Part shown: in pieces, positions 32,374 to 37,429 of the stretch
Position numbering within the stretch: the stretch's first letter is position 1
Layout of the letters: the number at the start of each line of letters is the position of its first letter
Source of the DNA: Acidimicrobiales bacterium
GTDB taxonomy: Bacteria; Actinomycetota; Acidimicrobiia; Acidimicrobiales; RAAP-2
NCBI GenBank assembly: GCA_025362585.1
Contig: JANYFR010000036.1
Span: 1 to 38,147, forward strand
Direction of reading: 5' to 3'
DNA length: 38,147 nucleotides
Made by a program: the position numbers and the translations under genes
Notes under the pieces: model-generated
What the model was told of the DNA's origin: nothing
Seen by the model: only the letters and a program-made list of their open reading frames with translations
Databases searched by the model: none

Positions 32374-33525
32374 TCACTGCTGACGAATGGCGGCGCCCAG
32401 TTCGACCAGTCCGCCCTCTCGACCGTCGTAGGTCACCTGAATCGACGCCGCCTGCTCGCGCCAGGCAATGACGTTGCTGCCGTGGGGGTCCACGATCCCG
32501 ATATTGACGTCGTAGATCCCGTCGAGCAGTGGAATCTGGGGCAGATCAATGCCGACGCAGTTGCGGCCCGGGAGGAGATTGACGGGGGATCCTTTGGCGT
32601 CACTGCGACTAACGAGCAGCCCTCCGCGGGTGAAGATCTCCATGAGGAAGTTGCCGCTGTAGGCGGTCTGGGACGTGATGTTGACGTCAAAGTGCAGGCC
32701 GGCGCCGCTGCGCACTTCGAACGAGCCGGTGGGCGTCGTGACTGAGTCGAAGTTGATGCTCGACATCAGGCCGCTCTGGTCACTGACGGTCGCCGACTCC
32801 ATCAGGTGCTCACGAAAGATGCGTAGCGAGTCGTGCGTCGGTCCGTCGGCGATCATGACGCCGTGCTCGAGCACGATCGCGCGATCGCAGATGGACCGGA
32901 CCTGATCGGCGTTGTGGGTGACCAGCAGAATCGATCGACCCTCATCTTGGAAGGTCCTGATCCGGTCGATGCACTTCGCCTGAAACCGTTCGTCGCCCAC
33001 CGCCAACACCTCGTCAACGACGAGGATGTCCGGATCGACGTTGACCGCGACCGCAAAGGCCAGTCGCACGTACATACCGCTGGAGTAGAACTTCACCTGC
33101 GTGTCAATGAACTGACCGATCTCGCTGAAGGCCACGACGTCGTCGAAAATGCCGTCGATCTTCTTTCGCGAGAAGCCGAGCATCGCGCCGTAGAGGTAGA
33201 CGTTGTCGCGACCGGAGAGCTCGGTCTGAAAGCCGGCGCCGAGTTCGAGCAGCGCCGCCAGGCTCCCGCGCAGGCGAATCTGGCCCGAGGTCGGCTGCAG
33301 TACGCCACAGATGCACTTGAGGAGCGTGGACTTGCCCGAACCGTTGTGGCCGATCAGGCCCACGGTCTCGTTCGTGTCGACCCGGAAGCTGATGTCCGCG
33401 AGCGCGTTGAAGATCTCGGTCGAACCGGCCTTGGGGTGCAGCATGCGCTCCTTCAGCGACTGGTGGCGCCCGTGGTGGATCTTGAACTGCTTCGAGACGC
33501 CCTCGACGTTGATAACGGTCGACAT
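32374..33525 (-). CDS. Polysaccharide/teichoic-acid ABC exporter, ATP-binding protein (Wzt-like)
   Basis: The 383-residue product is the ATPase of a Wzm/Wzt or TagGH-type exporter. Walker A is [12 protein letters not shown] (59-70). LLELGAGFQTELSGRDN is characteristic of this subfamily, the signature is FYSSGMYVRLAFA, and Walker B is ILVVDEVLAVGD. Residues from about 250 form an extra beta-rich C-terminal domain like that of Wzt proteins that recognise the terminated O-polysaccharide chain. The ATG at 33525 shares a base with the permease stop (TGATG); a longer frame to 34602 only shadows the permease gene. No glycosyltransferase genes are nearby, so the glycan is unknown. Confidence 0.92.
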   Translation of the reverse strand: MSTVINVEGVSKQFKIHHGRHQSLKERMLHPKAGSTEIFNALADISFRVDTNETVGLIGHNGSGKSTLLKCICGVLQPTSGQIRLRGSLAALLELGAGFQTELSGRDNVYLYGAMLGFSRKKIDGIFDDVVAFSEIGQFIDTQVKFYSSGMYVRLAFAVAVNVDPDILVVDEVLAVGDERFQAKCIDRIRTFQDEGRSILLVTHNADQVRSICDRAIVLEHGVMIADGPTHDSLRIFREHLMESATVSDQSGLMSSINFDSVTTPTGSFEVRSGAGLHFDVNITSQTAYSGNFLMEIFTRGGLLVSRSDAKGSPVNLLPGRNCVGIDLPQIPLLDGIYDVNIGIVDPHGSNVIAWREQAASIQVTYDGREGGLVELGAAIRQQ

Positions 33526-34463
33526 CAGAGCTCCGACTCGAAGTTCCGTTCGAGTCGACCGAAGATGACCTCCGCGAACAGGAACAGGAGGATCATCAGT
33601 CCGAGGAGGGAGATGTTGAGGTAGAAGTAAGTCGACATTGGCCAGGTCGGCAGCATGTGCAGGACCGAGTGGGGCGGTTTCGTGGAGAGCACCGTGGTCG
33701 CGACGTAGAAGACCCGTTGGAAGGTCAGGATGATCAAGGTGATGGGGTTCAAGAAGTAGAGCCACGCCACCCCGTGGCTGTGGAGCCGGGGCGCAATCGA
33801 GTCCTCGTAGGAGTAGACGATCGGCGACATGAAGAACCACAACTGCAGGATGATGACGATGAAGTGCTCCATGTCGCGCATGTACACCGTGATCGCCGAC
33901 GTCAGCACGGCGAGCGCGGCGGTGAAGAAGTAGAGGGCGCCGAAGGCGATGGGCAAGATCCACAGGAAGCTCCACTGGGGCGCGTGTCCCAGTAGGAGCA
34001 GGTACAGCACCAGCACACCTATCTGAATGAAGAAGTACACCACCGAGGCGCCCACGTTCGCGAGCGCCAGGATCTCGCGCGGAAAGGCGACCTTCTTCAC
34101 GAGTCCGGCTCGGTAGACAATGACGCCCGTGGCCGACTGCAGCGCCGTTTGGAACATGTTCCACACCACCATGCCCGAGAACAGGTAGAGCGCGAAGTTC
34201 GGGTAGCCGTTGTTCAAGAAGACCGAGAAGACCACGTAGTAGATGGCGAGGAACAGCCCCGGGGTCAGCATGGACCACAGGATGCCCAGTGCGGAGTTCT
34301 TGTACTTGATGCGGATGTCCGACGTAATCAGACTCGACAGCAGCTCGCGACGCGACGTGAGGCTTCGCAGTCGCGTGAAGAGACTCGCCCGGGCGCTCAT
34401 GGTGCGAAAGGCCACACCTTCGAGCGCACGACGCTCGACGTGCGCCGGCACGACGTCGTCCAC
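33525..34463 (-). CDS. Polysaccharide/teichoic-acid ABC exporter, permease (Wzm-like)
   Basis: The product is an ABC-2 polysaccharide export permease with six hydrophobic segments. SDIRIKYKNSALGILWSML precedes the first helix as in Wzm/TagG. Late motifs MRDMEHFIVIILQLWFFMSPIVY and WLYFLNPITLII are typical. Two starts are possible. GTG 34463 gives 312 residues, shares a base with the clpP stop (TAGTG) and has AAGGG 5 bases upstream. ATG 34400 gives 291 residues and a more standard N-terminus. I chose the GTG. It pairs with the Wzt-like ATPase downstream. Confidence 0.9.
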   Translation of the reverse strand: MDDVVPAHVERRALEGVAFRTMSARASLFTRLRSLTSRRELLSSLITSDIRIKYKNSALGILWSMLTPGLFLAIYYVVFSVFLNNGYPNFALYLFSGMVVWNMFQTALQSATGVIVYRAGLVKKVAFPREILALANVGASVVYFFIQIGVLVLYLLLLGHAPQWSFLWILPIAFGALYFFTAALAVLTSAITVYMRDMEHFIVIILQLWFFMSPIVYSYEDSIAPRLHSHGVAWLYFLNPITLIILTFQRVFYVATTVLSTKPPHSVLHMLPTWPMSTYFYLNISLLGLMILLFLFAEVIFGRLERNFESEL

Positions 34464-35050
34464 TAGAGCCCTTGGCGCACTGCCGACCGCTCGATGACGG
34501 CGTCGATGAAGCCGTAGTCGAGAGCCTCTTGCGCCGTGAACCAACGGTCGCGGTCGGAGTCGACCTCGATCTGTTCGATGGTCTGTCCCGTGTGAAACGC
34601 AATGCGTTCGGCCAGCTGTTTCTTCATGTAGACGATCTGCTCAGCCTGAATCGCGATGTCCGACGCCTGTCCCTGCATACCGCCCATCGACGGCTGATGC
34701 ATCAAAATGCGACTGTGCGGCAACGAGAAACGCTTGCCCGGCGCCCCGGCGCAGAGCAAAAACTGGCCCATTGAGGCGGCCATGCCTACGCAGATGGTGC
34801 GTACGTCGCAGTTCACGTACTGCATCGTGTCGTAGATCGCGAGGCCGTCAGTGACTGACCCTCCCGGCGAGTTGATGTAGAGACTGATGTCCTTGTCCCG
34901 GTCTTCCGCCTCGAGCAAGAGCAGCTCGGCACAGATCCGATTAGCGGTGTCCTGGTCGACCTGCGAGCCGAGGAACACAATGCGCTCGCGCAAGAGACGC
35001 TGGTTGAGATCAACAACGCCGAATCCTTCGGCCATGGAGGTGGTGTTCAT
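34463..35050 (-). CDS. clpP: ATP-dependent Clp protease proteolytic subunit ClpP
   Basis: ClpP is the serine peptidase that forms a 14-mer chamber fed by ClpX or ClpC. The 195-residue product has the catalytic serine S93 in [12 protein letters not shown]118 in LMHQPSMGG and D168 in SDRDRW, and the INSPGGSV oxyanion segment at 60-66. Length fits the family with a short N-terminus. No second clpP, clpX or tig lies in the window, unlike the common actinobacterial clpP1-clpP2-clpX order. Instead its stop overlaps the start of a polysaccharide exporter permease. TAGATT ends 6 bases before the ATG with no ribosome-binding site. Confidence 0.95.
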
Positions 35051-35112: not shown

Positions 35113-35196
35113 GCGGGCGTGGCGGAATTTGGTAGACGCGCTGGTTTTAGGTACCAGTTCTTCGGAGTGTGGGTTCGAGTCCCTCCGCCCGCACCA
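35113..35196 (+). tRNA. tRNA-Leu (UAG)
   Basis: Acceptor GCGGGCG/CGCCCGC, D-arm with TGGTAGACGC, anticodon stem CTGGT/ACCAG around loop TTTAGGT (anticodon TAG), a long class-II variable arm, and T-loop GGTTCGAGTCC. The discriminator is A and CCA is encoded. Confidence 0.96.
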
Positions 35197-35259
35197 GTTG
35201 GTTCGACTGGTGCGTCACTCTCACCGTGACCATCTGCTAGCGTGGACAGAAGTGTTTTG

Positions 35260-35321
35260 CCGCACATTGCGGTGGAGACCGATTCGACTGTGACATATCG
35301 AGTTGGGCTCATCTCAACTCG
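35260..35321 (+). promoter_or_regulatory. Two hairpins in the helicase leader
   Basis: CCGCA-CAT-TGCGG (35260-35272) is followed by CGAGTTG-N9-CAACTCG (35299-35321), a perfect 7-base stem that ends exactly where TAGGAG, the helicase Shine-Dalgarno sequence, begins. This could make translation depend on temperature or on RNA remodelling. Confidence 0.5.
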
Positions 35322-35331
35322 TAGGAGTCAT

Positions 35332-37044
35332 ATGTCCATGTCCTTTGCCGACCTCGGCGTGCCGTCAAACCTGGTGGAGCGTCTTAAAGAGCGCGGCATC
35401 ATCGAAGCATTCCCCATTCAAGAGGCCGCGCTGCCCGACGCCCTCGCCGGGCGCGACGTCGTTGGCAAGGCCGCCACCGGCTCGGGCAAGACCTTGGCCT
35501 TCGGCCTGCCCCTGATGGCTCGGCTCACTAAGGCCCGTCCTCGCAAACCCGTCGCCCTCGTGCTCGTGCCCACGCGCGAGCTCGCGGCGCAGGTTCAAAA
35601 GGAGATCGCCCAGTTGACCGACGACCGCGGTCGTCGCGTCATCACCATCTACGGGGGCACCTCCTACAACGTCGCGCGCAAGGCCCTCAACTTCGGCGTC
35701 GACGTGGTCGTCGCGTGTCCCGGTCGACTCGAGGACATGCTGGAGCAGGGCGCCCTCGACCTCTCATCGGTCGAGACCGTCGTTGTCGATGAGGCCGACC
35801 GGATGGCCGACATGGGCTTCCTGCCCTGCGTGCGTCGCATCGTCGGCGCCACGCCGGCGAATCGCCACGTCATGCTCTTCTCGGCGACCATGGGTCCCGA
35901 CGTCAAGTCCCTCGTCAGGGAGTTCACCCACGACGCGGCCATCCACGACGTCGTCGGCGACGAAGCTCCGAACGACGTCGACCACTTTTTCTGGCGCGTC
36001 GCTCGCGATCAGCGCCCCCAGATCACGGCCGACATCGTTGAAGAGTACGAGCGCGCCATTGTCTTTACTCGCACCAAGCACGGGGCGGACCGTCTCGCCC
36101 GTCAGCTCGAAGAGCGCGGCATCAGCGCCGTCCCGCTGCACGGTGACCGCACGCAGGCCCAGCGCGAGCGCGCCCTACGCAGCGTCAAGAACGGCCAGGT
36201 TCGCGTTCTCGTGGCGACGGACGTCGCGGCGCGCGGTATCCACATCGATCTCTTGCCAGTGGTGATCCACTACGATCCCCCGGCGCAAGCCATTGACTAC
36301 CTGCACCGTTCCGGTCGCACCGGCCGCGCCGGCGCGACGGGTGCGGTCATCTCACTGGTGGGCGAGGACGTCATGGGCCAGGTCAAGCGAATGTTGAAGG
36401 CCCTCGGACTGTCGGCGACCATCGAGTCGCGCGAGGACGCACCGGCGATTCGTTTGGGCGCGGTCGACGACGCCGTCGCCGCCGAGCGGCTCGACGACCG
36501 AGGGGGCAAGGGCCGCTCGGAGCGTCCCACGACGCGCAGCCAGGACCGTGGCCCGCGCACCTTCGACCGTGGCCCGCGCACCTTCGAGCGTGGCGAGCGC
36601 ACCTTCGAGCGTGGCGAGCGAACGAGCAGCGATCGGGCTCGCCCCGGTCACGGCTTCGCCGACCGGACCCCTCGCCCCGAGCGCTCCACCGAGCGCGTCG
36701 AGCGCGGAACTCGACCGGCACGCGGGCCCCGCACCGAACGGACCTTCGCCGACCGGGCGCCGCGCACCGAGCGGGTGGCCACTCGCGAGCCCCGTTTCGC
36801 TGGGCGGGCCAGTTCGCCGCGTGGCAGCGAGGCCGTCGTCAGCTTCTTCAACGACTCCAAAGGATTCGGCTTCGCGAGCGACGACAAGGGCGACGACCTC
36901 TTCATTCACTTCTCCAACATCGTGGGTGACGGATTCAAGTCGCTCGCCCAGGGCCAGAAGATCACGTTCGAGGAATCCACCGGTCCCAAGGGTCGCGAAG
37001 CGCGCAACGTGCGCGTCGTCGGCGGTGGACGCGAACGCCGTTAG
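35332..37044 (+). CDS. DEAD-box RNA helicase fused to a C-terminal cold-shock domain
   Basis: The 570-residue product unwinds RNA duplexes with ATP. Helicase motifs are the Q motif in EAFPIQEAAL, GSGKT (50-54), PTRELAAQ, DEAD from residue 153, SAT, and HRSGRTGRAG near residue 325. Residues about 395-495 form a highly charged RG/RT-rich linker made partly of seven-residue repeats. From about residue 497 to the end lies a cold-shock domain with RNP1 KGFGFASDD and RNP2 DLFIHFSNI, an RNA-binding module. The ATG at 35332 has AGGAG 4 bases upstream; the frame extends further into the leader without similarity. The FKBP gene follows 13 bases later. Confidence 0.93.
   Translation: MSMSFADLGVPSNLVERLKERGIIEAFPIQEAALPDALAGRDVVGKAATGSGKTLAFGLPLMARLTKARPRKPVALVLVPTRELAAQVQKEIAQLTDDRGRRVITIYGGTSYNVARKALNFGVDVVVACPGRLEDMLEQGALDLSSVETVVVDEADRMADMGFLPCVRRIVGATPANRHVMLFSATMGPDVKSLVREFTHDAAIHDVVGDEAPNDVDHFFWRVARDQRPQITADIVEEYERAIVFTRTKHGADRLARQLEERGISAVPLHGDRTQAQRERALRSVKNGQVRVLVATDVAARGIHIDLLPVVIHYDPPAQAIDYLHRSGRTGRAGATGAVISLVGEDVMGQVKRMLKALGLSATIESREDAPAIRLGAVDDAVAAERLDDRGGKGRSERPTTRSQDRGPRTFDRGPRTFERGERTFERGERTSSDRARPGHGFADRTPRPERSTERVERGTRPARGPRTERTFADRAPRTERVATREPRFAGRASSPRGSEAVVSFFNDSKGFGFASDDKGDDLFIHFSNIVGDGFKSLAQGQKITFEESTGPKGREARNVRVVGGGRERR
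36544..36627 (+). repeat. 21-base coding tandem repeat in the helicase linker
   Basis: Four units of 21 bases encode DRGPRTF, DRGPRTF, ERGERTF and ERGERTS. The first two are identical at DNA level and the last is partly diverged. The repeat lengthens a disordered, arginine-rich RNA-binding linker and could vary in copy number between strains. Confidence 0.85.
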
Positions 37045-37057
37045 GAAGGTTGGCGAC

Positions 37058-37429
37058 GTGTCCGAGAAGCCATTCGTTGAGCCCCACCTCGAACCGACCC
37101 CCGACGACCTGCTCATCGAAGAGTTGATTGTCGGTACCGGGGAAGAGGCCACGTCCGGGCAGACCGCCGTCGTGCATTACGTGGGCGTAGGTGTCACGAG
37201 CGGCGAGCAGTTCGACGCGTCGTGGGACCGCAGCGAGCCGTTCAGTTTTCCCCTCGGAGCCGGCCATGTCATTCAGGGCTGGGATCGCGGCGTGGTGGGG
37301 ATGAAGGTCGGCGGTCGACGTCGTTTGGTGATTCCCCCGCACCTCGGTTATGGCGACCGGGGCGCCGGTGGCGTGATTGCGCCGGGTGAGACGCTTATCT
37401 TCGTCGTGGACCTGCTCGAACTTCGTTAG
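37058..37429 (+). CDS. FKBP-type peptidyl-prolyl isomerase
   Basis: The 123-residue product is a single FKBP domain, which catalyses cis-trans isomerisation of prolyl bonds and assists folding. Family residues are visible in VVHYVGVGVTSGEQFDASWDR, PFSFPLGAGHVIQGWDRGV, MKVGGRRRLVIPPHLGYGDRG and the closing TLIFVVDLLELR. No signal peptide is present, so it is cytoplasmic. The GTG at 37058 follows AGGAAGG by 8 bases and is chosen over the long upstream open frame, which shadows the helicase. It follows the helicase gene by 13 bases. Its stop interlocks (TTAG) with the convergent LON-domain gene. Confidence 0.93.
   Translation: MSEKPFVEPHLEPTPDDLLIEELIVGTGEEATSGQTAVVHYVGVGVTSGEQFDASWDRSEPFSFPLGAGHVIQGWDRGVVGMKVGGRRRLVIPPHLGYGDRGAGGVIAPGETLIFVVDLLELR

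Follow-up and report, generated by a model that had tools for sequence, protein, structure and literature searches.

A DEAD-box helicase joined to a C-terminal cold-shock domain by an arginine-rich linker in Acidimicrobiales and other Actinomycetota

The window studied here is the whole stretch of 38,147 nucleotides analysed from an Acidimicrobiales bacterium (contig JANYFR010000036.1). Its positions 35332..37044 on the plus strand hold one gene, which encodes a protein of 570 residues composed of a DEAD-box helicase, an arginine-rich linker and a cold-shock domain (CSD). The open frame runs without a stop over 35242-37044, and the ATG of the gene is at 35332, with AGGAG, a putative ribosome-binding site, located 4 bases 5' of it (35323..35327, +). 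The start methionine is matched in all 12 fused proteins of our alignment A1. In the helicase core, the DEAD domain (PF00270, residues 28-192, 35413..35907, +; DEAD motif at residues 153-156) scores 160.4 bits against the curated Pfam cut-off of 26, and the Helicase_C domain (PF00271, residues 235-334, 36034..36333, +) scores 99.5 bits against 23.5. The motifs that we take to be Q, I, Ia, GG, Ib, II (DEAD), III (SAT), V and VI are all intact, and they are nearly invariant among 84 aligned proteins of the genus. In the AlphaFold model the blocks of the core mostly exceed 84 pLDDT. As a member of the DEAD-box family, the protein would be expected to unwind RNA duplexes locally at the expense of ATP.

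The linker (residues 366-495, 36427..36816, +) has 32 arginines in 130 residues, i.e. 25%, with a computed pI of 11.5 and low sequence complexity, and its residues 391-494 fall below 50 pLDDT and are thus predicted to be disordered. It contains a 21-base in-frame tandem array (36533..36620, +) of 7-residue units such as RGPRTFD/E, for which TRF gives two overlapping rows of 3.5-4 copies with 88-94% matches. The CSD (PF00313, residues 501-562, 36832..37017, +) scores 66.9 bits against the Pfam gathering score of 27 and is matched by solved Csps (3cam_A, E 3.5e-19). AlphaFold predicts five strands between residues 499 and 562, with CSD blocks at 80-95 pLDDT, from an input alignment of 49 sequences in which just two relatives have the domain; the whole model has a mean pLDDT of 80.9 and a pTM of 0.64, and is uninformative on docking between the domains. 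Two motifs of the CSD, KGFGF (residues 510-514, 36859..36873, +) and LFIHF (residues 523-527, 36898..36912, +), are of the RNP1 and RNP2 types. The domain is not a stand-alone Csp: it scores 69.1 bits against the cut-off of 120 of the CspE NCBIfam equivalog, and it sits within a chain of 570 residues. The proposal of an earlier note that core, linker and CSD share one frame is therefore upheld by an intact reading frame and by Pfam scores above the gathering values.

The gene is followed, 13 bases past its stop, by a gene for an FKBP-type peptidyl-prolyl isomerase with a GTG start (37058..37429, +). On its other side are a tRNA-Leu (tag anticodon, 35113..35196, +) and a divergent ClpP-type protease (34463..35050, -). 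Across the genus, within the short flanks at hand, 73 of 88 loci have the FKBP gene near the fusion and 58 of 88 have ClpP, the latter count being limited by the shortness of the flanks; a divergent subclade of the genus keeps the fusion despite a different neighbourhood. Scans for promoters and for terminators gave no hits, but they say little in a genome of such high GC. A leader of the cspA thermosensor type was considered and discarded, the single Rfam match being well below the gathering score (15.4 bits vs 78, E 0.71) and falling within the CSD coding sequence.

We searched 99 genomes of the genus with the CSD and examined the locus in 88. In all 88, i.e. 88 of the 99 genomes, helicase, linker and CSD share one frame. 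The remaining 11 comprise six in which the locus is cut or broken and five with no detectable ortholog. Contig ends cut the locus in G015 and G022, where linker and CSD yet stay in frame, and in G004, where the contig ends before the CSD; the two parts sit on separate contigs in G355 and G393 and in broken frames in G346. The ortholog was not found in G343, G360, G018 and G389, which are 65-75% complete, nor in G368. The last genome is 97% complete, showing that the fusion is not indispensable. For conservation we aligned 84 of the 88 proteins; L035, L106, L206 and L235 dropped out for want of a recognised start pattern. The mean column consensus is 0.85 (core), 0.55 (linker) and 0.84 (CSD). 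Between the window and L007, dN and dS are 0.023 and 0.567 for the core, 0.229 and 0.985 for the linker, and 0.037 and 0.601 for the CSD. Within the genus the CSD is about as conserved as the core, and the linker diverges fast. Between distant members the CSD diverges faster than the core, with identities to the window of 46% against 68% in L034 and 45% against 66% in L066.

The linkers of the genus are 48-182 residues long with a mean of 23% arginine, and TRF detects arrays of some kind in 34 of 88, with varying units and with periods of 9-111 bases, mostly multiples of three. A conserved 21-base repeat is ruled out by this variation of unit and period between species, and the special role which the earlier note had supposed for the repeats is not borne out. 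What persists is an arginine-rich disordered spacer rather than any particular repeat. In the CSD, N507, F514, F524 and H526 are kept in all 84 aligned proteins, position 512 is F or Y in all 84, and position 505 is F or Y in 78. These six residues (F505, N507, F512, F514, F524 and H526) are presumed to face the nucleic acid, as taken from work on CspA and CspB; position 504 of the window protein is serine, where we take CspB to have lysine. It is plausible that the CSD holds RNA beside the helicase core. In six of the 84 members (L233, L234, L236, L237, L238 and L240), all of one subclade with a short linker and a different gene neighbourhood, the usually aromatic positions 505, 527 and 535 are taken by N, R and Q, so that their CSD may make weaker contact with RNA.

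Our survey of relatives beyond the genus covers the Actinomycetota. Among 20 loci sampled from sister genera of the family, eight are fused, namely all six from g222, one from g221 and one from g228; their CSDs were found by an HMM built from A1, which itself includes fused proteins. Another 11 have neither a CSD nor an adjoining csp gene and end in a basic disordered tail, and in two sister loci with an FKBP gene behind the helicase (L071 and L116) Pfam finds no CSD. The last of the 20 (L309, genome G467 of g225) carries csp as a gene of its own, which starts 58 bases after the helicase stop. This arrangement of an orthologous helicase and then a free csp gene (L309 1440-1900, -) is apparently a pre-fusion or a split state, and it fits the suggestion of the earlier note that a normally separate partner has been tethered to the core. 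The same domain order, which that note proposed to seek in other genomes, is found across nearly the whole genus and beyond it, so that absence from all relatives, which the note gave as a refutation, does not hold. In Acidimicrobiaceae, L117 is fused; other fusions in the class are in G261 (f30), G149, G211 and G243 (f50), G193 (f64) and G055 (f20). Of 19 order-level comparison loci one is fused, the locus used for G045 being the second-best match there. In a phylum sample of 70 genomes, we examined ten long CSD frames, and one, in G437 of another class, has an in-frame helicase; the family of G437 has the fused frame in 3 of 16 genomes (G437, G536 and G537). In the class search L056 also has a long CSD frame, with no helicase, so a long open frame around a CSD is by itself an unreliable sign of fusion. 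When G261 is queried with the CSD of the window protein, the fused one on C5 (L070) is the sole CSD match found in that genome; a free Csp is present in sister genomes of f30.

In the helicase tree of 69 rows, the 17 rows of the genus form one clade (SH-aLRT 99), which groups with the six g222 rows (SH-aLRT 90). The fused L070 and the unfused L078 of f30 are nearest relatives (96). In the CSD tree, which has few columns, the fused CSDs of the family and the free Csp of L309 form one group (SH-aLRT 86), and the fused CSD of f30 stands, weakly, beside the free Csps of f30 (74). The fused label takes at least seven changes on the 69-row tree and six on a 67-row tree built before it; both are single quick runs with many open forks, in which gains are indistinguishable from losses. 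A single origin for all fusions seems unlikely from these six to seven changes, counted on quick trees blind to gain and loss. The fused form apparently arose more than once in the phylum from neighbouring genes. We read the trees as suggesting one ancestral csp gene behind the helicase in the family of the window and separate captures elsewhere, a pattern which would also allow losses.

Traces of a former csp start are seen in some relatives. An ATG lies directly before the CSD, with a purine-rich, ribosome-binding-like stretch in front, in L072 and L075 of f50 and in all three genomes of f70. In L070, L269, L117 and L321 a methionine precedes the CSD and the ribosome-binding-like stretch is not clear. 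Since the csp start and its ribosome-binding-like site are kept, some relatives may make both the fused protein and a free Csp. In the window, a GTG at 36775 is the sole start-like codon in frame close to the CSD, and the protein looks fully integrated, with the old csp start lost. In f70 (L273 2400-2720, L330 and L331), a strong ribosome-binding-like site precedes the ATG of the fused CSD, suggesting that a free Csp is nested in the gene.

With helicases of the RhlE, CshA and Hera type, the window protein shares the core motifs, the domain order and the basic disordered tail, the C-terminal CSD being extra. Among solved proteins, Hera (4kbf, E 4.3e-80) and CshA (5ivl) match it best in sequence, and CshA, Hera and DbpA in fold. 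None of 25 NCBIfam models among the matches listed reaches its cut-off (for RhlE2 329.5 bits vs 925, for CshA 326.8 vs 646), and these cut-offs leave the protein outside the RhlE, RhlE2 and CshA equivalogs. A folded module for RNA is known in YxiN, which binds specifically to 23S rRNA. DbpA and YxiN consist of a helicase core and a C-terminal folded RNA-binding module, as described in an excerpt of PMC6178137, and the window protein is built likewise. However, their module has the RRM fold, whereas the window protein has a cold-shock OB-fold on a long arginine-rich linker; Pfam finds no match to the DbpA RRM domain in it, and we do not count it among the DbpA/YxiN proteins. In Rho and RNase R, an OB- or CSD-like domain likewise keeps single-stranded RNA next to the core, a motor or a catalytic one, but those cores are different and the domain is no Csp attached at the C-terminus by a disordered linker. 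A helicase and a cold-shock protein are reported as interactors for CshB and CspB of B. subtilis in a table of PMC6178137 and for AtRH7 and AtCSP3 of Arabidopsis in PMC4846089; there they act in trans, while the window protein is one chain. In the open-access literature, judged by titles and the beginnings of abstracts, we recognised no description of a helicase-CSD fusion. DEAD-box helicases with an RNA-binding part added at the C-terminus are well known, so the fusion adds to a known theme rather than making a new class, and its reach is moderate, a known RNA-binding module being placed on an enzyme class where such additions are common.

Taken together, we consider that the gene probably encodes a single-chain RNA remodelling enzyme, with activities as expected from its families and a CSD derived from an adjoining ancestral csp gene. 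The core would bind duplex RNA and open it locally with ATP, and the arginine-rich tail and the CSD would bind single-stranded RNA without ATP, which would keep the enzyme on its substrate and slow the re-pairing of the freed strand; on a single flexible chain, the holder would be more concentrated just where the strand has been opened. That the fusion is instead an artefact, with two genes joined by misassembly, by a missed stop or by a frame error, is a concern, the last two having been raised already in the earlier note, and one to which every genome being a draft assembly and the broken frames of both parts in G346 might lend some colour. The chance of it is practically nil: the same fusion in 88 of 99 independent genomes of the genus excludes a frame or assembly error as its source, the CSD is under purifying selection, and the start of the CSD has neither a methionine nor a ribosome-binding site, the nearest in-frame start-like codon being GTG 36775.

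What the CSD does for the enzyme may be judged differently. It might be a docking module, for example for ribosomes, RNA polymerase or a degradosome protein, with the core and the basic tail holding RNA alone, as 11 of the 20 sister-genus orthologs work with a basic disordered tail and no CSD and in one subclade of the genus three aromatic residues on the surface of the CSD have given way to others; most aromatic positions are however kept in most members, which fits nucleic-acid binding, and we regard docking as unlikely. RNA condensation driven by the linker is possible, given that the linker is 25% arginine, of low complexity and predicted disordered, and that the linkers of the genus are arginine-rich, variable in length and fast-evolving. 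But the linker of the divergent subclade has only 48-70 residues, the repeat units are not conserved, and an excerpt of PMC6178137 explains the basic tails of DEAD-box proteins also by plain RNA tethering, so that an enzyme organising RNA granules, with the CSD adding valence, is a rather doubtful reading. Still less probable is a helicase of the cold response only, made when the temperature falls: published abstracts and excerpts of PMC6178137 and PMC4846089 link both DEAD-box helicases and Csps to adaptation to cold, but a CSD does not imply cold induction and no cspA-type leader exceeds the Rfam gathering score.

For the remodelling enzyme that we prefer, sister genomes support an origin in an ancestor with a csp gene directly behind the helicase gene; on the branch from which the genus and its sister g222 descend, this csp would have turned into the C-terminal domain. 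More broadly, a recurrent conversion of csp genes into C-terminal domains in Actinomycetota, with all stages surviving and with selection for unwinding and single-strand holding to be paired at a fixed 1:1 ratio, is a proposal to which we give even chances. The stages meant are a tail only, a neighbouring csp gene, a fused csp with its own start and ribosome-binding site, and the fully integrated domain of the window. If so, the set would be a natural experiment on whether both partners engage one RNA simultaneously. Cooperation of helicases with cold-shock proteins on RNA is commonly assumed, and a covalent pair lets its closeness be probed. The pair is kept by about 90 related species, and the unfused and adjacent-gene relatives in sister genera permit domain swaps and cuts; they also show clearly, step by step, how adjacent genes pass into a single protein.

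Elsewhere in the window, frames at 32374-34544 (-) resemble, by eye from their translations, the ATPase and permease pair of a polysaccharide-export-type ABC transporter. In addition to the fused gene, the genome of the window also holds two small CSD frames and one further DEAD-box paralog.
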